Positions 1,979-47,618 of a DNA stretch of 47,618 nucleotides are shown here, in pieces. The position numbers were made by a program, and so were the translations under genes. The notes beneath the pieces are model-generated. The model did not search any database and was not told the origin of the DNA. It was given only the letters and a program-made list of their open reading frames with translations. Source of the DNA: Rubritalea profundi (GTDB lineage Bacteria > Verrucomicrobiota > Verrucomicrobiia > Verrucomicrobiales > Akkermansiaceae); assembly GCF_002954445.1 (NCBI RefSeq), contig NZ_MQWA01000001.1, positions 2,178,194 to 2,225,811 of the forward strand, read 5' to 3'. The number at the start of each line of letters is the position of its first letter. The stretch's first letter is position 1.

Positions 1979-3021
1979 AAAAAGGAGTCATAATTTAATC
2001 TTATTCATCCAGCATCCCTTCATGCCTAGAACTCCGCGGATCCAATACCCCGGACCCCTGCTATGTCATGGCACGCGGGTATCGTCGGGAGAACATTGTT
2101 CAAGGTGATGACGACCGCTGGATGTTCCTGCACACTCTGGGTGAAATGGCCGGACGCACCTCTATTCTTATCCATGCCTTCGCGCTCATCGACAATCACT
2201 ACCATCTTGTGCTCGAGACCCCGAGGGCGAACCTCGTGGACGGCATGCAGTGGTTCCAGAACACCTACACGCGGCGTTTTAATGTGAAACACAAAGCCTG
2301 GGGGCATCTCTTCGGTGGCCGTTACAAAGCAGTGCTCGTTCAGTCTGATGAGGGTGATTATTTCAGCACACTCATCGACTACGTGCATCTCAACCCCGTC
2401 AGAGCCGGAATGATCAAAGAGGGGCAAGGTTTTGATGAAAGCCCTTGGACAAGTCTGCGCGAATACCGCAAACCTACCACCAAACGCCAGCCCTGGATGG
2501 CTACTTCAGCCGGGTTTGAAGCCGTTGGGCTAGAAGATACCTCCCGGGGGCGCAAGGCCTACATAACACGTCTGGAAAACCTCATCGACTGGAGCCAGCC
2601 GAGCGATTCCGGTAAAATCCTCTGGCAGGGCCAAAGTCTGCAATCCACCTTGAAACGAGGCTGGTATTTTGGAGCACAGGAGTTTCGGGAAAAACTACTG
2701 GCCCGTCTGGAAACAGGAAAAGCCAATCTGGAGCGAAAAACCGCAAGGCGATACACCAGTGGAGAACTCAAAGCCTATGATGAGCAAGTGGCGGAAACCA
2801 TCGTGTGCGCGGGTTTGAAAGAGCTGGGGCTTGAACGCAGCGAACTGGCTGATCTCCCGAAGAACGCCCCAGCCAAAGCCCTGCTCGCGCACATCATCAC
2901 GGAACAAACCAGCATGCCGCAAAAATGGATCTCGCAAACCCTTCACATGGGCAGTGCCCCCTATGTGAGCAAATTGGCGAAGGAGATGAAGCTGGCCATG
3001 CCAAGCACCTGACCCCTTTTT
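1979..3021 (+). mobile_element. IS200-like (Y1 transposase) element with imperfect terminal inverted repeats
   Basis: The transposase gene is bracketed by AAAAAGGAGTCA at 1979-1990 and by TGACCCCTTTTT at 3010-3021. The second is the reverse complement of the first with one mismatch (AAAAAGG[A/G]GTCA). The span is about 1.04 kb. The right end cuts into the 3' end of the GxxExxY gene on the other strand, so that gene's frame continues into the element. The ends were inferred from this inverted repeat and from the position of the transposase; no target duplication was identified. Confidence 0.6.
2022..3012 (+). pseudogene. Y1 (IS200-like/HUH) transposase, frameshifted near its N-terminus
   Basis: The protein belongs to the Y1 transposase superfamily. 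The core from 2068 onward is open for 314 residues and contains the HUH box in the form NHYHLVLETP (residues about 43-52), the GRYKAVLVQ segment, and DYVHLNPVRAGM, where family members carry their conserved helix. The usual N-terminus MPRTPRIQYPG is present at 2022 but in another frame: the CCCC run at 2055-2058 holds one base too many, and removing it gives a single frame of 329 residues running through YVMARGYRREN. Starting at the ATG at 2068 instead would lose the first beta strand. It is either a recent pseudogene or a sequencing error. This transposase is unlike the RAYT found in metH. Confidence 0.75.
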
Positions 3022-11645: not shown

Positions 11646-16157
<4,512 letters not shown>

Positions 16158-35572: not shown

Positions 35573-37849
35573 ATGGATAAACATAAAGATCAATTGTTAG
35601 ATGACTTGCTCAAAGAGCACGCAAAACACGGAGCAGGAAGTGATGAGACCTTCCTTAAGGAATTAGATGAACGCCTTGCCGCTCAGGAAAAGGTAGTGAA
35701 AATGCCTAAACCTCAACAAAGTCCAGGGACAAGATGGGCGCTAGGATCAGGCATAGCAGCCTGCCTCGCCATTGGGTTTAGCGTGCATTATTTTACGAAG
35801 ACGAATGAGGAAGATACGATCGCTTATCATGATGCGAACCTGGAGGTTCTCGTAGCCGATGCTATTTTAGAGCTTCCGATAGAAGCTCAGGTAAGACCAA
35901 TGGCACCCAAACCCAATATGGCTCAGCTTGCTTCTACTAGAAGCGAGAATGAATCAGCTCTGTCAGATGTGAGTAAACCGAGAATGTATGAAGGTGAACA
36001 AACCGCTGCACAGACACCTGGCAATTCAAATCGACTCTTAGGTGATAAACCGAGTAGATCCTATGAAGAGGATCTGAGCGTGGGTGGCTATTCAGATGGT
36101 ATATTACGAGGGAAAGACTCTGAGAAGAAGGAGAAAAGCGACTCGTTAGAGCGCAAGCCCTCAGCTCCATCGGGTAGCATGGCGAAGGTGCTTGCTTCGA
36201 ATGTAGTGTCACCACAACAGATACCCATGCCAGCAAGAGAGGTAAAGGAATTGAGTATCGCTTTAGATGATCACGTCTTAGGTTATGCGGGTAAATCAAA
36301 GAGACAGAATACACCTGAAAGTAGTCTATTGGGGAGAGATGCAAATGTCGCTCGCTCAAGGATTGCAATTTACCCACCCCCACATGTTCATCCACCCGTA
36401 GTCCAGCCGAATACTGCAGGTGAGAAATATGGCGAACTCACAGATAACAAATGGACTGCTCCTATAGATGAGCGTTCTTCCCTCTCCACTTTTGCAGTGG
36501 ATGTCGATACTGCGAGTTATGCGAATATCCGTAGAATGATCCGTCAGGGGCAAGCGATTCCGAAAGACTCGGTCCGTATCGAGGAGATGGTAAACTACTT
36601 CGACTACCAATACGCCCAGCCGACTGACGAGCATCCATTCGCGGTGCATGTTGATTCCTGTGTCTCTCCCTGGGACTCTAACAACCGCATTGTGCGGATT
36701 GGTATTCAAGGAAAAGAGATCGTCCGTGAGCAACGCCCAGCAACCAATCTCGTATTCCTGCTCGATGTCTCGGGCTCGATGAATAACGCTAATAAATTGC
36801 CGCTACTCAAACAGTCGATGCAGTATTTGTTAGAGGAGCTGAACGAGAACGACACAGTGAGCATAGTTGTCTACGCTGGAGCTTCAGGTTTAGCGCTTCC
36901 TGCAACGAAGGTTGATGATATTGGACGTCAGAAGATTCTAGAGAAGATGAATAGTCTGAATGCCGGTGGACCGACCGCTGGTGGGCAGGGGATCCAACTC
37001 GCTTACAAGCAGGCTCAGGAAAACTTCAAAAAAGAGGGAGTCAACCGTATCATTCTAGCCACTGATGGTGACTTCAATGTCGGGGTCTCAGACAATGCTT
37101 CTTTGACCAAGATGGTGAAAGAGAAGGCCAAGTCAGGAACTTACATCTCAGTGTTAGGCTTCGGTAGCGGTAACATCAACGACGCCATGCTCGAGTCTAT
37201 TACTAACAACGGTAATGGAAACTACAGCTATATCGACACGATCAAGGAAGGTCGCAAGGTGTTGTTAGAGGATATGATGGGAACCATGGTGACCATCGCT
37301 AAGGACGTCAAAGTGCAGGTGGAAATGAACCCTAACAATGTGAAGGCATATCGCCTGATTGGCTACGCAAACCGCATGCTACCACCCGAGGCATTCCTCG
37401 ATAAAAAGGTGGATGCTGGCGAAATAGGAGCAGGACACACTGTGACAGCCCTCTATGAAATTATCCCAGCCGACGGTAAACCCTTCGGCACCGATATCGA
37501 TGCCTCACGCTACTTCAAGAAACCTGAGGTAAAGCCAAATCCAGCTCTAAAGGAGAGCAAAGAAATGATGTTCGTAAAGCTCGCCTACAAGCAGCCAGAT
37601 CAGAAAATAGAAGATGAAAGTACTTACTTCACCGTTCCTTTTGTGGATGGTAAATCGGAGATTACAACAGATATACAATTCGCAACTTCTGTCGGACTCT
37701 TCGGTATGGTCCTCCGCGATAGTGAAAATAAAGGCAATGGAGATTTAGCCAAGGTTCTCAGTCTCGCCAAATCTGGCAAAGGAACTGACGGAAAAGGCCA
37801 GCGCGCCGAGTTCATTCAGCTCGTCGAGAAGTGTATCGAGAAAGAATAA
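35573..37849 (+). CDS. Membrane-anchored VWA-domain protein (YfbK-like), probable anti-sigma partner
   Basis: A 758-residue protein that joins a short cytosolic helical N-terminus (DQLLDDLLKEHAKHG) to one membrane helix (WALGSGIAACLAIGFSVHYF, about 57-76), a long disordered linker, a vWF_A-associated domain (SLSTFAVDVDTASYANIRRM), a VWA domain with a MIDAS motif (FLLDVSGSMNNANKLPLLK) and a DUF3520-like C-terminus (SKEMMFVKLAYKQPDQKIED). VWA domains bind protein ligands through metal. The position after the sigma factor and the N-terminal layout suggest a zinc-free anti-sigma role, but no anti-sigma motif is strictly seen. Confidence 0.8.
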   Translation: MDKHKDQLLDDLLKEHAKHGAGSDETFLKELDERLAAQEKVVKMPKPQQSPGTRWALGSGIAACLAIGFSVHYFTKTNEEDTIAYHDANLEVLVADAILELPIEAQVRPMAPKPNMAQLASTRSENESALSDVSKPRMYEGEQTAAQTPGNSNRLLGDKPSRSYEEDLSVGGYSDGILRGKDSEKKEKSDSLERKPSAPSGSMAKVLASNVVSPQQIPMPAREVKELSIALDDHVLGYAGKSKRQNTPESSLLGRDANVARSRIAIYPPPHVHPPVVQPNTAGEKYGELTDNKWTAPIDERSSLSTFAVDVDTASYANIRRMIRQGQAIPKDSVRIEEMVNYFDYQYAQPTDEHPFAVHVDSCVSPWDSNNRIVRIGIQGKEIVREQRPATNLVFLLDVSGSMNNANKLPLLKQSMQYLLEELNENDTVSIVVYAGASGLALPATKVDDIGRQKILEKMNSLNAGGPTAGGQGIQLAYKQAQENFKKEGVNRIILATDGDFNVGVSDNASLTKMVKEKAKSGTYISVLGFGSGNINDAMLESITNNGNGNYSYIDTIKEGRKVLLEDMMGTMVTIAKDVKVQVEMNPNNVKAYRLIGYANRMLPPEAFLDKKVDAGEIGAGHTVTALYEIIPADGKPFGTDIDASRYFKKPEVKPNPALKESKEMMFVKLAYKQPDQKIEDESTYFTVPFVDGKSEITTDIQFATSVGLFGMVLRDSENKGNGDLAKVLSLAKSGKGTDGKGQRAEFIQLVEKCIEKE

Positions 37850-37879: not shown

Positions 37880-37914
37880 AGCCAGTCCCCGAGCAATCGG
37901 TGGCTGGCTTTTTA
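37880..37914 (+). terminator. Terminator of the sigma/VWA unit
   Basis: A 13-bp stem (AGCCAGTCCCCGA with TCGGTGGCTGGCT, one mismatch and one wobble) around GCAA, followed by TTTTTATT. Confidence 0.8.
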
Positions 37915-37918
37915 TTGT

Positions 37919-38002
37919 GGCCGTAGAAGAGGCTTCCAGCCTCTTTGAGCTGAGTCTCGTTAAATCGAAAAACAAGCAAAGAGGCTGGAAGCCTCTTCTA
38001 CG
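37919..38002. repeat. Inverted REP pair (BIME-like) between the VWA gene and dus
   Basis: Two GTAG-plus-hairpin REPs in inverted orientation, 25 bp apart. The left arm (37919-37951) is identical over 33 bp to one end of the metH element. The right arm (37978-38002) is identical over 25 bp to the other end (12810-12834). This is the non-autonomous REP unit matching the RAYT in metH, placed between convergent genes as REPs usually are. Confidence 0.85.
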
Positions 38003-38015
38003 ATCAGCGCATGAC

Positions 38016-39026
38016 CTACTGCCCCTCGAGCACGACGTTGTCGTACTTTCCAGAGAGATGGTTGGCCGCTATGTCTTCCAGCTCGGTGACTGAGACGACT
38101 GCGCAGAGCTTTTGGCGCAGAGCTTTGGCGCCGCTGAAGCCTTTGCAGTAAGCCATCAGGCGTGAGCGCATAGCCATCACTGTGTGACGCTCTTCACCAC
38201 CGTAGCGCTCTGACTTCGTCGCCAGCGTGCAATGTCGGATGATCAGCTCCCAACGCTCCTCGATGGTGATCGGAGGAAGATGCTCGCCAGTTTCCAGATA
38301 GTATTTTGCCTCGCGGAAAATCCACGGGTTCTGCATCGCAGCACGGCCAATCATCAGGCCCGAGACCGCGGTCGTTTTCTTGCGCATTTCTATATCTTCG
38401 CCGCAAGTGATGTCGCCATTTCCGATGATAGGTAGATCTGTAGAGCGTGCGCATTCATCGATGATGTTCCAGTTTGCTTCACCGCGGTATCCCTGTGACC
38501 GGGTGCGGCCGTGGATGGCAATTTGCTGCATTCCGCAGTCTTCTAGAGTCTTACAGACTTCGACAGCATTGATGCTTTTCTCATCCCAACCGACACGAAT
38601 TTTAGCAGTGACGGGAACTTGGTCTCCCACAGCCTTGGCCACTCCTTCAGCTACTGAGGCTAGTAGTGGACAGTCTTTAAGAAGTGACGACCCTCCATTT
38701 TTAGAAACTACTTTGCTCACCGGACAACCGAAGTTGATGTCGATGAAGTCTGGTTGCTTCCAGTCGATTATTTTCTTTGCCGCTTCTCCCATCCGCTCGC
38801 CATCCGCTCCAAAGAGTTGCACACCGACCGGCCGCTGGCCTTCGTGGAATTCTGTGTATTTCCGAGTGCGATCGTCGCGTCGGACAATACCTTCGGCCGA
38901 GACAAATTCCGTCACCATCACATCGGCGCCGAGTTCTTTGCAGATCGTGCGAAATGTCACGTCAGTGACCCCAGCCATCGGGGCTAGAAAGAGTGGGAAC
39001 TTGTCGTTGTCGAACCAGGGAAGCAC
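38016..39026 (-). CDS. dus: tRNA-dihydrouridine synthase
   Basis: A 336-residue FMN enzyme that reduces uridines in the tRNA D-loop. The FMN-binding start is FLAPMAGVTDVTFRTICKE, the catalytic-Cys motif is DINFGCPVSKVV (Cys in GCP), and KIRVGWDEKSIN and IGNGDITCGED are further family signatures, as is HGRTRSQGYRGEANW. It is closest to the DusB type by its general pattern. It is convergent with the VWA gene across the REP pair. Confidence 0.9.
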   Translation of the reverse strand: MLPWFDNDKFPLFLAPMAGVTDVTFRTICKELGADVMVTEFVSAEGIVRRDDRTRKYTEFHEGQRPVGVQLFGADGERMGEAAKKIIDWKQPDFIDINFGCPVSKVVSKNGGSSLLKDCPLLASVAEGVAKAVGDQVPVTAKIRVGWDEKSINAVEVCKTLEDCGMQQIAIHGRTRSQGYRGEANWNIIDECARSTDLPIIGNGDITCGEDIEMRKKTTAVSGLMIGRAAMQNPWIFREAKYYLETGEHLPPITIEERWELIIRHCTLATKSERYGGEERHTVMAMRSRLMAYCKGFSGAKALRQKLCAVVSVTELEDIAANHLSGKYDNVVLEGQ

Positions 39027-43067: not shown

Positions 43068-46000
43068 ATGAACTCCAAACGATCCAAATTCCTTCAGTCC
43101 TTCCTAATCCCCACCCGAGCCTTGCCCGTCTTGGCCATGGCATGCCTCTTTTTTCAGAATACTGCTGACGGGCAAGTATCGGGCTCAAGCCTGAACCCCT
43201 CTGCTGGAACTACCCCGTGTATTCAATCCTCAACGAATACATTCTCAGCAAGTAAGGCTGGCTCATACCCCATTACCACAATAGGAGTAAATGGTCAGTC
43301 TATAGTTAAGGTTAAAGTGTCGTTCACAGCCTCAGAAGAGTGCGATGAATTAGAGGTTTCTGCTTCGGCAACATCCTCATCAGGAGGAGGGGTTACAGTA
43401 ACCTCTTCCCCTTCATCAGTAACACTTACCGAGGAACAATCTGAACAGGAGTTTACGCTTACATTTGATTCCTTAAATATATCCGCAAGTAGCAAATGGG
43501 ATATTAAAGTGAATGGTGAAAAAATTGATATCGTTGAATTCGAGAAAGGAGACTGCTCGTCCTGCTCGATAGGGGGATCATGTGGCGGATCCACGGTCCA
43601 AGGCAGCTTCCTTCTTGACCTTCCCACGCCCTATTCGAATGGAGGTATGACGAAAGGAACCCTCTATTTCTTTACCCCCGACTTTACCTTCCCGGGGCGC
43701 GCTGGTCTCACGGCCATCATGCCACCTGGTTTCACTGTCACACGTGATACTAACGAACTCATCACTCAAATTGATACCGGTGCTGGCGTCATGGACATCC
43801 AAGACGGAACAGCCCCAGATTCGATTGAGATTTCATATAAAGATGCTGCCGGTGTCGAGTTCCGACATACAGTTGTCTCTAAAATCACCACTGGTGGTGG
43901 CCTCCCAGGCTTCCGTATGGACACGACCTTCGACGGCTCCACCACCCGCCACGAGCAATACGAAACCAGCCCTGGCACCACGGTTCTCGAAAAAGGCCGC
44001 GTTATCGCAGGGGCATTCATCCCCCTATCTCTAGAAACTCTCGCAAAAGACACCAGCACCCCAGGCATCCAAATCAAGCGCACTACCATTAAGGAGCGCT
44101 GCTCATCCAGCGATCCATGGCAAACCGTCAGTGACACAGAAACCACATGGGAAAACCAGCTTAGTGGCTGGGTCAAAACCAAAGAGATCATCGATCCAGG
44201 CGCTGCAGCCCTCACCTCCACCTGGACCTACTACCAGCCGGGTGAAATCACCGGTCCAGGAGGTTCTGTCGAAGGTCTCACAAATCTCAAACACCATGTC
44301 CGTCATGACGGTTATGAGTCCTTGCACACCTACGCTTTACATTACGAAAGCATCACCACCCCCTACGCTGGAAACATGACTGGTAAAACCACCACCACCA
44401 GTCACGACCCAGGCAGCAACACCACTACAGTAACCACCACTATTGGCGGAGTTGTAACCTCTAAAACCGTCACAGCCAAGTTCGTCACCGAAACCGAAAG
44501 CCACAAAACTCGCGATGTTTACACCGCTGAAGGCGAAATGCTCAGGACAAAGGCCCATTACATCATACAAGGCAGCGACTTCGTCCTCAAACCCTTCCGC
44601 GTCGAGCATCCCAATGGCACCCTCACCACCTACTCATATAACCGAGACACCACCGGCGGCTACACCACCGTCACCGACAATGGAGCCACCACAGACAACA
44701 TCATCGTCTCCAAAGGCACTCGCACCACTACCTCAGTCAACTCCCGTGGTACCACCATTTTTAGTAAGACCCAGTCCATCGGCTACGGCGCAGCAGATAG
44801 TGAGGTCTACGGCTCTATGGCCGTCACCTCTGTCGACAATGTCGGCCGCCCCCTCACCACCCTCTACCATCCAGAAACCGTAACTCTCACCGGTGAAGTC
44901 GCCGCAGCCACCAACCCCGCATGGACCACCACTCAGGAATACAATTGCTGCGGAGTTTCCAAGCAAACAGACCAGTATGGTATCATCACCTACTACGCCT
45001 ACGACGAACTCCAACGCCGGATCAAAACCAACCGCCTCGGCGTCACCACCGAAACCGTCCGCAACGGTCTGATTACTGAAACTCACCGCTACGCAGAAAC
45101 CGTTGGCGCCTCACTCTCGTCCACCTTGGCCGGCACTACTGCCACGCTCGTATCCAGATCCGTGCGTAACCTCAGCGGCACGCTCTCTGAATCATGGTCC
45201 CCCGACTCCACCAGCACCACCGCCGGTACCTTGATCAAATCCTCCAGCACAGCCACCACCTACCAGCCATCCGCTGGTCTCTCCCGACGCACCGTCACCA
45301 CCACTGCTGACGGCTTCACCCAAACCACCGACAGCTTCCTCGACGGGCGCACTGCTACCACCTCTGGCGATCTGTCACCAGCCATGCAATACGCCTACAG
45401 CGTCAATGCCACTGGCCCAGTCACGACCCAGTCCTACCTCGATGGCGTCAACCTCCGTCAAACCACCACCAGCCAATCTGACTGGACTGGCCGCCAGCTC
45501 AGCACCACCTACATGGATGGCGCAGTCGCCATCGTAGAATACAACGCCCTCGGTCAAATGGATAAATCCACCGACCTAGATGACATCATCACCACCTACA
45601 CCTACAACACCGAAGGCGAACGCACCACCACCTCCCAGCCCATCGCCGGAGGACAGACCATGGTCACACTCACCGAGCGCAGTTTCGCTACCGCTACCGA
45701 AAGCGGCATCGGCACTGCCTACAAGACAACCACCACCGTCAACGGCAAACTCGTCAGCACCAGCTTCCGCTCAGCAGACGGCATGAGCAGCAAAACCGTC
45801 ACCCTCGCTGGAACAACCTACTCCTCTAGCTCCACCCCAGCTAATGGCGACTGGACCCTCACCTCCACCCACCCCCGACGGCCAGAAAGCGTCCAGACCT
45901 ACACCTCTGGCCGACTCGCAAAAACCGAAACCTTCGACAACAGTGCTACCCCAGTAAGCATCGCCTCCACCTCCTACGGCTACGACACCTTAGGACGCAC

Positions 46001-47618
46001 CTCCTCCACCACGGACTCCCGCACCGGCGTCACCACCACCGCATACCTCACCACCACCGCCGATGTGCCAACCAACGTCACCGACCCCGGCAGCCGCACC
46101 ACCGCCTACACCTATGACACCCGCGGACGCACCATCACAATCGACGCCCCAGATACTACCGACAAAGACGGTAACACCATCGATAACATCACCCACACCA
46201 GTTACTACAGCAATGGCCAAGTCGCTGGCACTTGGGGCGACCAAACCTATGCACGCTTCAATGTGTATGATTCTCAGAATCGTTTCATCGAACTCCGTAC
46301 ATACCAGGACCTAGCACACGGCACTGAGCCTACTGCTAGCACTACTGGATTTGCCTCCACCAAGTGGAACTATAACCCAACTCGTGGCTGGCTCGACAAC
46401 AAGCGCTACGACGACAACAAGGGCACCGACTACACCTACACTTCAGCCGGTCGCCTTGAAACACGTGAATGGTCTAGACTTAACACATCAAACGTAAAAC
46501 TTAAAACTACGTACAGTTACGACCAAGGCCAAATGGTCTCCACCACCTACAACGATGGACTCACCCAAGGAGTCGTCTACACCTACGACAACTTCGGACG
46601 TCCAACTGTGGTCACTCAAGGAACTGGAGCCACAGCCAACCAGCATGCTTACATCTATGACGCTGCAACTCTAGTTCTCGACAAAGAAATCATCTCCTAC
46701 GGCAATGGTCTCTCAAGAACACTCGACCGCTCACAAGACGGACTACTTCGTCCAGCGGGTTTCCAGTTAATGAATGGAACGACAGAAGAGCACGCAACAA
46801 GCTACGGCTACGACGCAGTTGGCAGATTAGCAGGTTTGCATACAGCTGCTACTTATTCAGCAACTCCTGACTTCAGCTATGCTTACTTGGCGAACTCCGG
46901 TAGTTTACTTGAAACCGTCACCGGCCCAGCCCACACAGTGACGAATACTTACGAAACAAACCGCAACGTCCTGACCAACAAGGAAAACAAAGCGGGAGTC
47001 AATATCCGCTCCAACTTCGCCTACACCGTCAACGACCTAGGCCAACGAGACGATGTATCTCGATCAGGCACCGCCTTCACATCCGCTAATACAGAAACCT
47101 GGAACTATAATGCCGTAGGCGAAACTGTTAGTGCCGATCACAGTACAAACAACGCTTTTGACCGCTCGTATCTGTTCGACGGCATAGGCAATCGCAAGAA
47201 ATCAGCCGATAGTCTGACGCTTCCAGCGACAGATAACTACACCAGCAACGCGCTGAACCAGTATCCTGCTGTAGGTGCAGTTGCTAGATCGTTTGATGAC
47301 GATGGCAATCTCACAAATGACGGCACAAAGCAGTTTGAATGGGATGCAGAAAACCGCCTCATTGCTGTGAAGCAAGGTGCTGTGACTGTCGCTGAATACG
47401 ATTATGACTATCAAAGTCGTAGAATCACCAAAGATGTTGCAGGTGTAGTCACAAACTTCGTTTATGACGGCTGGAACCCGATAGCAGAATTCACTGGCAC
47501 TACGCTCAGTAAAAGCTATGTTTGGGGAATGGATCTCAGTGGATCAATGCAAGGTGCTGGTGGTGTAGGTGGTCTTTTGGCAGTAGCTGAAGGTTCTGCG
47601 ATTCACTATCCAGTTTAG
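43068..47618 (+). CDS. RHS repeat wall-associated protein
   Basis: A 1516-codon frame. It begins with a signal peptide (MNSKRSKFLQSFLIPTRALP, then LAMACLFF). An adhesive N-terminal part with a CSSC-x-IGGSC cluster near residue 165 comes next. A long array of YD/RHS-type repeats from about residue 380 to 1440 follows, with units like TYYAYDELQRR, GYDTLGRTSSTTDSRTG, AYTYDTRGRT and EWDAENRLIAVKQGAVTVAEYDYDYQ. The RHS core starts at SRRITKDVAGVVTNFVYDG and reaches GAGGVGGLLAV. Normally the chain continues as Y-D-x-N-G-N-V and a variable toxin tail, but a TAG stops it after HYPV at the last base of the window. It may be a real truncation, or the window or contig ends there. Confidence 0.85.
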   Translation: MNSKRSKFLQSFLIPTRALPVLAMACLFFQNTADGQVSGSSLNPSAGTTPCIQSSTNTFSASKAGSYPITTIGVNGQSIVKVKVSFTASEECDELEVSASATSSSGGGVTVTSSPSSVTLTEEQSEQEFTLTFDSLNISASSKWDIKVNGEKIDIVEFEKGDCSSCSIGGSCGGSTVQGSFLLDLPTPYSNGGMTKGTLYFFTPDFTFPGRAGLTAIMPPGFTVTRDTNELITQIDTGAGVMDIQDGTAPDSIEISYKDAAGVEFRHTVVSKITTGGGLPGFRMDTTFDGSTTRHEQYETSPGTTVLEKGRVIAGAFIPLSLETLAKDTSTPGIQIKRTTIKERCSSSDPWQTVSDTETTWENQLSGWVKTKEIIDPGAAALTSTWTYYQPGEITGPGGSVEGLTNLKHHVRHDGYESLHTYALHYESITTPYAGNMTGKTTTTSHDPGSNTTTVTTTIGGVVTSKTVTAKFVTETESHKTRDVYTAEGEMLRTKAHYIIQGSDFVLKPFRVEHPNGTLTTYSYNRDTTGGYTTVTDNGATTDNIIVSKGTRTTTSVNSRGTTIFSKTQSIGYGAADSEVYGSMAVTSVDNVGRPLTTLYHPETVTLTGEVAAATNPAWTTTQEYNCCGVSKQTDQYGIITYYAYDELQRRIKTNRLGVTTETVRNGLITETHRYAETVGASLSSTLAGTTATLVSRSVRNLSGTLSESWSPDSTSTTAGTLIKSSSTATTYQPSAGLSRRTVTTTADGFTQTTDSFLDGRTATTSGDLSPAMQYAYSVNATGPVTTQSYLDGVNLRQTTTSQSDWTGRQLSTTYMDGAVAIVEYNALGQMDKSTDLDDIITTYTYNTEGERTTTSQPIAGGQTMVTLTERSFATATESGIGTAYKTTTTVNGKLVSTSFRSADGMSSKTVTLAGTTYSSSSTPANGDWTLTSTHPRRPESVQTYTSGRLAKTETFDNSATPVSIASTSYGYDTLGRTSSTTDSRTGVTTTAYLTTTADVPTNVTDPGSRTTAYTYDTRGRTITIDAPDTTDKDGNTIDNITHTSYYSNGQVAGTWGDQTYARFNVYDSQNRFIELRTYQDLAHGTEPTASTTGFASTKWNYNPTRGWLDNKRYDDNKGTDYTYTSAGRLETREWSRLNTSNVKLKTTYSYDQGQMVSTTYNDGLTQGVVYTYDNFGRPTVVTQGTGATANQHAYIYDAATLVLDKEIISYGNGLSRTLDRSQDGLLRPAGFQLMNGTTEEHATSYGYDAVGRLAGLHTAATYSATPDFSYAYLANSGSLLETVTGPAHTVTNTYETNRNVLTNKENKAGVNIRSNFAYTVNDLGQRDDVSRSGTAFTSANTETWNYNAVGETVSADHSTNNAFDRSYLFDGIGNRKKSADSLTLPATDNYTSNALNQYPAVGAVARSFDDDGNLTNDGTKQFEWDAENRLIAVKQGAVTVAEYDYDYQSRRITKDVAGVVTNFVYDGWNPIAEFTGTTLSKSYVWGMDLSGSMQGAGGVGGLLAVAEGSAIHYPV

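Follow-up and report, generated by a model that had tools for sequence, protein, structure and literature searches.

The 81-bp hairpin pair at positions 37922-38002 of the window (the whole stretch of DNA that was analysed, 47,618 nucleotides from Rubritalea profundi) is, as judged from its sequence, a REPIN, a non-autonomous pair of REPs. It was most likely moved (probability about 0.8) by a RAYT, a Y1/HUH transposase, that appears to be built into the methionine synthase MetH. By itself, the REPIN is a further example of a kind of element already known; the new element proposed here is a variant of the REPtron whose cognate RAYT sits inside host proteins. The features concerned are as follows.

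37922..38002, no strand: solo REPIN, 81 bp, two inverted REPs with CGTAG heads outward
37922..37947, + strand: left REP arm, CGTAG plus hairpin AAGAGGCTTCCAGCCTCTT; the identity with the metH element spans 37919 to 37951
37948..37976, no strand: 29-nt spacer separating the REPIN arms; its first bases only match the RAYT element
37977..38002, - strand: right REP arm, hairpin then GCTTGTTTTT on the - strand; resembles a terminator of the Dus gene
35573..37849, + strand: gene for a vWA/YfbK-C protein, left convergent neighbour (Pfam PF12034, PF12450)
38016..39026, - strand: tRNA-dihydrouridine synthase (Dus) gene, right convergent neighbour (Pfam PF01207)
11646..16157, - strand: metH open frame, 1503 aa, RAYT included; above both NCBIfam methionine synthase equivalog cut-offs
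12159..12834, - strand: metH-resident element, REP ends plus RAYT; MetH residues V1109-T1332, in frame
12162..12187, + strand: REP at the RAYT C-terminal end, read as part of K-R-L-E-A-S-S-T
12810..12834, - strand: REP at the RAYT N-terminal end, read as V-E-E-A-S-S-L-F

The arms of the REPIN are perfect 26-bp inverted repeats separated by 29 nt. The first-pass annotation had claimed that they matched both ends of the metH insertion exactly, over 33 and 25 bp and in opposite orientation, and both coordinates and lengths proved correct. Indeed, positions 37919-37951 equal 12159-12191 at one end of the insert (33 bp, 100%) and positions 37978-38002 equal 12810-12834 at the other (25 bp, 100%), the two elements lying 25 kb apart. 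From base composition, the numbers expected by chance in the window were about 3e-11 for an exact 33-mer pair and about 2e-6 for an exact 25-mer pair. The left arm carries an extra GAGCT that was also present at one RAYT end and in none of the other REP hairpins compared. Folding of the REPIN as single-stranded DNA gave -31.3 kcal/mol (z -9.8), and none of 200 shuffled sequences folded equally well. The convergent flanks described previously were also confirmed, with the vWA/YfbK gene (+) 72 bp and the Dus gene (-) 13 bp from the REPIN. Taken together, the pair shows inverted REPs with a GTAG head, repetition across the genome, a hairpin kept by compensatory change, and a cognate RAYT, that of metH, bearing the same REP flanks. 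A possible YfbK-gene terminator with the stem AGCCAG/CTGGCT near 37880-37909 was seen by eye and was absent from the terminator prediction. The REPIN matched Rfam microRNA families below the gathering score, and these matches were dismissed as artefacts of its palindromes.

At the level of the sequence, the metH RAYT has neither the usual start codon nor a stop and is open in the MetH frame. The frame of 1503 aa contains no internal stop, and the RAYT lacks a stop codon of its own. No ATG, GTG or TTG was found between the N-side REP and the RAYT domain (LPHW at 1135), the nearest start-type codon being the GTG of host DYV. Pfam and NCBIfam scans placed MetH domains on both sides of the transposase, and the MetH equivalog score was 1786 bits against an NCBIfam cut-off of 1497. 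Within the MetH activation domain, the insert is bounded by DYVAP and DFVGG. When the 170-aa C-terminal end of MetH was used as a query, the R. profundi genome gave one match, and 53 of 58 genomes gave a match, in every case a single one. The insert carries the HUH motif and Tyr of a RAYT and has two inverted REPs at its ends; HUH and Tyr172, which we take to be the catalytic Tyr, were invariant along with other positions in 22 of 22 aligned RAYTs. Its score against the NCBIfam equivalog REP_Tyr_transpos was 64.6 bits (E 8.9e-18), below the 80-bit cut-off, which is a curation threshold and not a defining trait.

The MetH activation domain with its insert, modelled by AlphaFold (523 aa, 30 rows), had a mean pLDDT of 80 and a pTM of 0.57. 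Confidence dropped under 50 in the two linkers (residues 131-156 and 347-352) as well as at 430-438 and the C end. The model resolves into two folded parts, most of the least confident positions falling in the linkers, and the relative placement of the domains in it is not trustworthy. Foldseek matched the model to MetH activation domains (E about 5e-22). The nearest transposase fold was that of a RAYT, the E. coli-type RAYT-REP complex 4er8 (3.4e-7, TM-score to target 0.61).

The R. profundi genome contains 17 Y1_Tnp matches, four of which are of the RAYT type of metH. The RAYTs at loci L023, L024 and L029 have perfect end hairpins that differ from one another, and the end hairpins of the RAYT at L018 appeared by eye to be imperfect and in direct orientation. 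In a scan of about 1.5 kb of flank at up to 4 mismatches (L025, L027 and L029 partly masked), the REP of 37922-38002 was absent at 16 of the 17 Y1_Tnp loci, and metH alone was positive. No other RAYT fitted the REP better, the three of the same type carrying other hairpins, and further copies of the REP were present in the genome. These comparisons support the first-pass reading of the hairpin pair as a non-autonomous unit tied to the metH-resident RAYT. A further Y1_Tnp protein of 314 aa is encoded at 2068-3012 (+) of the window, outside the metH-type RAYT matches. At 43068-47618 (+), a long frame that continues past the end of the window contains repeats that, judged by eye, resemble those of the Rhs/YD type.

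Within one mismatch of the 23-mer, 20 REPs were found in R. profundi (G000), 12 of them exact. The same search of 11 congeners gave one copy, in G010, and none in the other ten. The 11-mer AAGAGGCTTCC occurred 17 times in the 4.17-Mb genome, twice outside any hairpin. A looser REP pattern gave 49 matches, falling into 35 clusters, versus 2 in the reversed control. Among 28 distinct copies, stem pairing reached 94.6% of cells versus 82.6% after shuffling, with two-sided (compensatory) changes at 5 of 8 pairs. Eight inverted pairs with outward heads are listed among the 35 clusters, the metH element being counted apart; they start on contig 1 at 12086, 354614, 1438680, 2216115 (window 37922-38002), 2384873, 2397371, 3528728 and 4134351. 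By the listed sequences, the pair at 2216115 is the only one with both arms exactly as in metH. Two REP pairs occupy in-frame positions within coding sequences, those of PurL (L035 1-2322) and of an MmeI-like methylase (L054 1-1926). The REPIN in PurL reads as a linker just before the glutaminase domain. The expectation that REPs sit mostly between convergent genes was not borne out, and a convergent-gene preference was rejected as their main rule. Convergent placement accounted for 8 of the 35 clusters (8 of 25 intergenic) and unidirectional placement for 16; a single cluster was divergent, 9 lay inside frames and 1 was undetermined. These are crude ORF calls with length as the sole basis of choice, and some of the 'inside' frames are short or masked. 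Masked (N) stretches adjoin some REPs or Y1 genes (L005, L025, L027, L029 and L039).

The R. profundi genome contains a second REP family, GTGGCGGCGGTTTCCAACCGCC, with 20 copies at up to one mismatch, examples being those on G000 contig 1 at 76339, 243987, 244373, 1439553, 3003370 and 3064670. At up to 4 mismatches it was found near the Y1 genes of none of the 17 loci of this genome. REPs resembling GTGGCGGCGGTTTCCAACCGCC border the metH RAYTs in G010 and in two Akkermansiaceae MAGs, L096 and L097. Since this family has no RAYT in view, REPs can outlive their transposase, and the family may be what remains of a RAYT that was lost or replaced.

The Dus gene was found in all 12 genomes of the genus, that of R. 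profundi included. In the 1.5 kb beside it, YfbK was found at two of the 11 congener loci (G004 and G001), and the printed intergenic stretch of both Dus-YfbK sites contained no such REP. At the other nine congener loci YfbK was not found alongside, and the Dus end of L207 was unread. Presence of the REP in R. profundi and absence from two syntenic congeners is, as read from these stretches, a matter of presence and absence only. The earlier claim of recent activity stands in part: arm identity and near-absence from the congeners point that way and suggest recent REPIN activity, but they give no date, and the congeners are distant.

The loop of MetH occupied by the RAYT was read at 30 loci from the search with the 170-aa C-end. 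It was filled in 6 (G000, G010, G067, G030, G020 and G033), lengthened in 2 (G032 and G018) and short in 22. Within the genus, in a survey that leaves out G005 and in which G008 had no match, the loop was filled in G000 and G010 and short in eight genomes (G001, G002, G003, G004, G006, G007, G009 and G011); in G004, the RAYT lies in a neighbouring MetH loop. The loop of G032 has ends like those of its congener G020 with the RAYT core gone in frame, and is on this reading an in-frame deletion scar; that of G018 has a shorter remnant that may derive from a REP. Between G000 and G010, the C part of MetH is 90% identical and the RAYTs 48% (13 of 15 rows compared, L102 and L177 dropped), and a tree joining their two RAYTs was not rejected (AU p 0.08). 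Fourfold sites showed no host-insert difference in 8 of 11 chosen pairs and a more changed RAYT in 3 (p 0.03, 0.04 and, for G000/G010, 0.05, uncorrected for 11 tests). Homing at the metH site was not shown by these comparisons. Most pairs are consistent with vertical persistence, accompanied by rapid protein change and repeated loss.

RAYTs were also found in frame inside other host proteins. Relatives were obtained by a pattern scan of the species collection (best 80 of at least 468), and a RAYT was counted as embedded when at least 90 aa preceded and at least 60 aa followed it in frame, L066 and L085 being added by hand. Longer frames contained 69 of 113 RAYT loci, or 64 of 108 after removal of 5 duplicate loci. 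The hosts form 24 blastp clusters; because two of these are HsdR, the host families number fewer than 24. In Pfam or NCBIfam scans of one or two representatives per cluster, host domains lay on both sides of the RAYT in MetH, IspG (GcpE), an Ile/Val-type class I tRNA synthetase, LeuRS, AlaRS, CarB, Sua5, XseA, HsdR (two), an alpha-mannosidase-like protein, a TPR protein and Eco57I/N6-type DNA methylases, one of them PglX-like. One-sided matches were to FabA-like, adenosine deaminase, Helicase_C_2, MmeI-like, radical SAM, UDG, NUDIX, WYL, DrmD-like and DUF1156-like hosts. The PglX-, DrmD- and DUF1156-like matches lie below NCBIfam cut-offs because the queries were partial proteins. IspG hosts were single copy in 5 of 5 genomes and LeuRS hosts in 2 of 2, weaker extra matches of the latter being taken as other synthetases. 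By record titles, embedded RAYTs occur in Verrucomicrobiota, Planctomycetota, Kiritimatiellota, Chloroflexota, Bacteroidota, Ignavibacteriota, Armatimonadota and Pseudomonadota. Because some of the records, for example Rubritalea marina DSM 17716 (L100), are not MAGs, the embedding is not explained by errors in binning.

Among the matches listed from other genomes (147 rows), frames of at least 600 aa accounted for 17 of the 19 RAYT rows at 150 bits or more and, with falling RAYT score, for 7 of 16, 6 of 35, 4 of 36 and 6 of 41. A phylum-wide draw found a RAYT of the metH model in 95 of 288 genomes (E 1e-20), and 46 of 150 rows among the matches listed, from 34 genomes, had frames of at least 600 aa, frame length being an indirect sign.

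In a RAYT tree of 108 rows, the 24 host labels gave 34 changes versus 61.1 when shuffled, and the 8 IspG rows formed one group. In a tree of 35 rows, 13 of the 14 MetH-loop RAYTs fell in one clade (support 99/98), which also contains L078 (another MetH loop) and L069 (a TPR protein). The RAYTs of L141 and L075 stood apart from the other MetH RAYTs, L075 outside the clade. In these trees the embedded RAYTs cluster by host, and their catalytic residues are conserved. Perfect stems of 6 pairs or more were present on both sides of 38 of the 47 embedded RAYTs scanned, on one side of 4 (L076, L080, L102 and L115) and on neither side of 5 (L018, L066, L073, L075 and L101). For stems with a GT[AG]G head (head within 9 nt), the corresponding counts were 21, 8 and 18. 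The headed REP form is enriched and not universal, because a headed hairpin occurred on at least one side of 29 of 47 embedded RAYTs versus 0 of 70 host control windows, yet 18 of 47 had none. The controls, 200-nt host windows further out, contained a stem in 19 cases and a headed stem in none. The hairpin arms vary between RAYTs.

In the proposed mechanism, MetH and the RAYT would be translated as a fusion in which MetH is still functional and the RAYT forms an extra domain on a loop, joined by REP-encoded linkers. To spread REPINs, the RAYT domain would cut single-stranded REPs in trans beside their GTAG head. Residence in metH, whose frame must stay open, would shelter the RAYT from loss and supply its expression. 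By a careless frameshift or excision of an embedded RAYT, the host enzyme would be lost to the cell. To our knowledge, the long-term upkeep of RAYTs, which are unlike ordinary transposases in behaviour, is an open question, and the incorporation of a transposase into methionine synthase, IspG or a tRNA synthetase offers a testable answer to their persistence. It is rather probable that such RAYTs form a wide class, without a start or stop of their own, placed in loops or linkers of housekeeping or defence proteins with REP ends as linkers, long-lived since only in-frame deletion is harmless, and mobilising genome-wide REPINs in trans, intein-like without splicing.

Several observations speak against the metH RAYT as the mover, among them its score under the NCBIfam RAYT cut-off, the GTGGCGGCGGTTTCCAACCGCC family without a RAYT in view and the 18 of 47 embedded RAYTs without headed hairpins. 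The metH RAYT could instead be a passive, domesticated or dying relic tolerated by MetH, with old REPINs. We consider this unlikely: many REP sites are single and several degraded, and the in-frame deletion scar of G032, perhaps joined by G018, agrees with such a relic, but the catalytic residues are invariant and 12 copies of the 23-mer are exact. Moreover, RAYTs of the closest pair had a dN/dS of 0.10, compared with 0.08-0.09 for the host; four pairs of greater divergence gave values from 0.06 to 0.12, and the remaining pairs were saturated. Spread of the REPIN by another RAYT, now lost or in unseen sequence and with the metH RAYT as a sister copy, is decidedly improbable. It would draw on a genome completeness of 95.8% with some stretches masked, and on the GTGGCGGCGGTTTCCAACCGCC family, whose 20 copies persist without a RAYT in view; against it, the ends of the metH RAYT are exact, the extra GAGCT on one side included, and among the 17 Y1 matches metH is the sole one with the REP.

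Very little probability is given to the palindromes being kept as transcription terminators or RNA 3' ends and not as mobile units. Although the right arm, together with the T-rich tail that follows it, was scored as a dus terminator, and only 1 of the 25 intergenic REP clusters is divergent, terminator-like sites numbered only 1 versus 0.6 expected, and REP pairs are also present in frame in PurL and the MmeI-like methylase. Nor would a terminator role explain ends identical to those of a RAYT. That the metH insert is spliced out as an intein or intron, so that MetH is made without it, is hardly credible. In-frame inserts at repeated sites of conserved proteins do look intein-like, but a Pfam scan (E 0.001) found no intein splicing domain, and the window contained no group I/II intron at the Rfam gathering threshold, with two tRNAs alone. 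Inteins are enzyme-coding elements in conserved host genes, and their relatives cluster by host gene; the metH insert differs in that no splicing domain was found and its enzyme is a single-strand transposase.

The REPIN and the metH-resident RAYT were compared with published systems as described in the available portions of the cited sources. Like REPINs or BIMEs (PMC3116915; Nunvar 2010, PMC2817692), the pair at 37922-38002 has inverted GTAG-head REPs, is genome-repeated and has a cognate RAYT with the same REP flanks, but copies are few (20 close REPs, 8 inverted pairs) and the cognate RAYT is inside a host enzyme. The RAYT/TnpA-REP or REPtron (PMC3733652; PMC6006769) shares with the metH element the HUH motif and Tyr, the REP flanks, RAYT-specific REPs and the 4er8 match, whereas the metH RAYT lacks its own start and stop codons and is in frame with the host protein. 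Di Nocera 2013 (PMC3733652), in the portion available, described GTAG repeats, in-frame REPs within genes and REP-flanked RAYT genes, and most of its intragenic GTAG repeats are from O. terrae, a verrucomicrobium. Intragenic REPs and the Rickettsia RPEs (PMC3733652) are likewise palindromic repeats in frame within genes, but consist of repeats alone, mostly 20-30 aa and up to 82 aa, where a whole transposase is present here. Yeast WHO elements (PMC7282813) are also enzyme-coding, reside in conserved host genes and have relatives that cluster by host gene; they differ in replacing the gene end and not lying internally, and the enzyme here is a single-strand transposase. No description of RAYTs inside host frames was found in the available text of PMC3733652, PMC6006769, PMC2817692 and PMC8266576, nor were in-frame RAYTs in host proteins reported by titles and abstracts of the open-licence PMC literature in a limited search. 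In the accessible part of Quentin 2018 (PMC6006769), a few unexpectedly long proteins were thrown out as fusions or annotation errors. If the wide class is real, part of the RAYT family has been concealed by length filters and by labels such as 'fusion or annotation error', and a ssDNA transposase domain is present in many annotated housekeeping enzymes.

Several hosts look like restriction-modification or anti-phage proteins (HsdR, MmeI-like, DrmD-like, PglX-like and DUF1156-like); the loci of this kind are L018, L115, L136, L140, L143, L144, L149, L153, L162 and L167, and RAYTs may have spread with defence islands. The first of these is a second R. profundi RAYT in frame, inside the HsdR of a type I restriction system (G000 contig 1:3263977-3264222).
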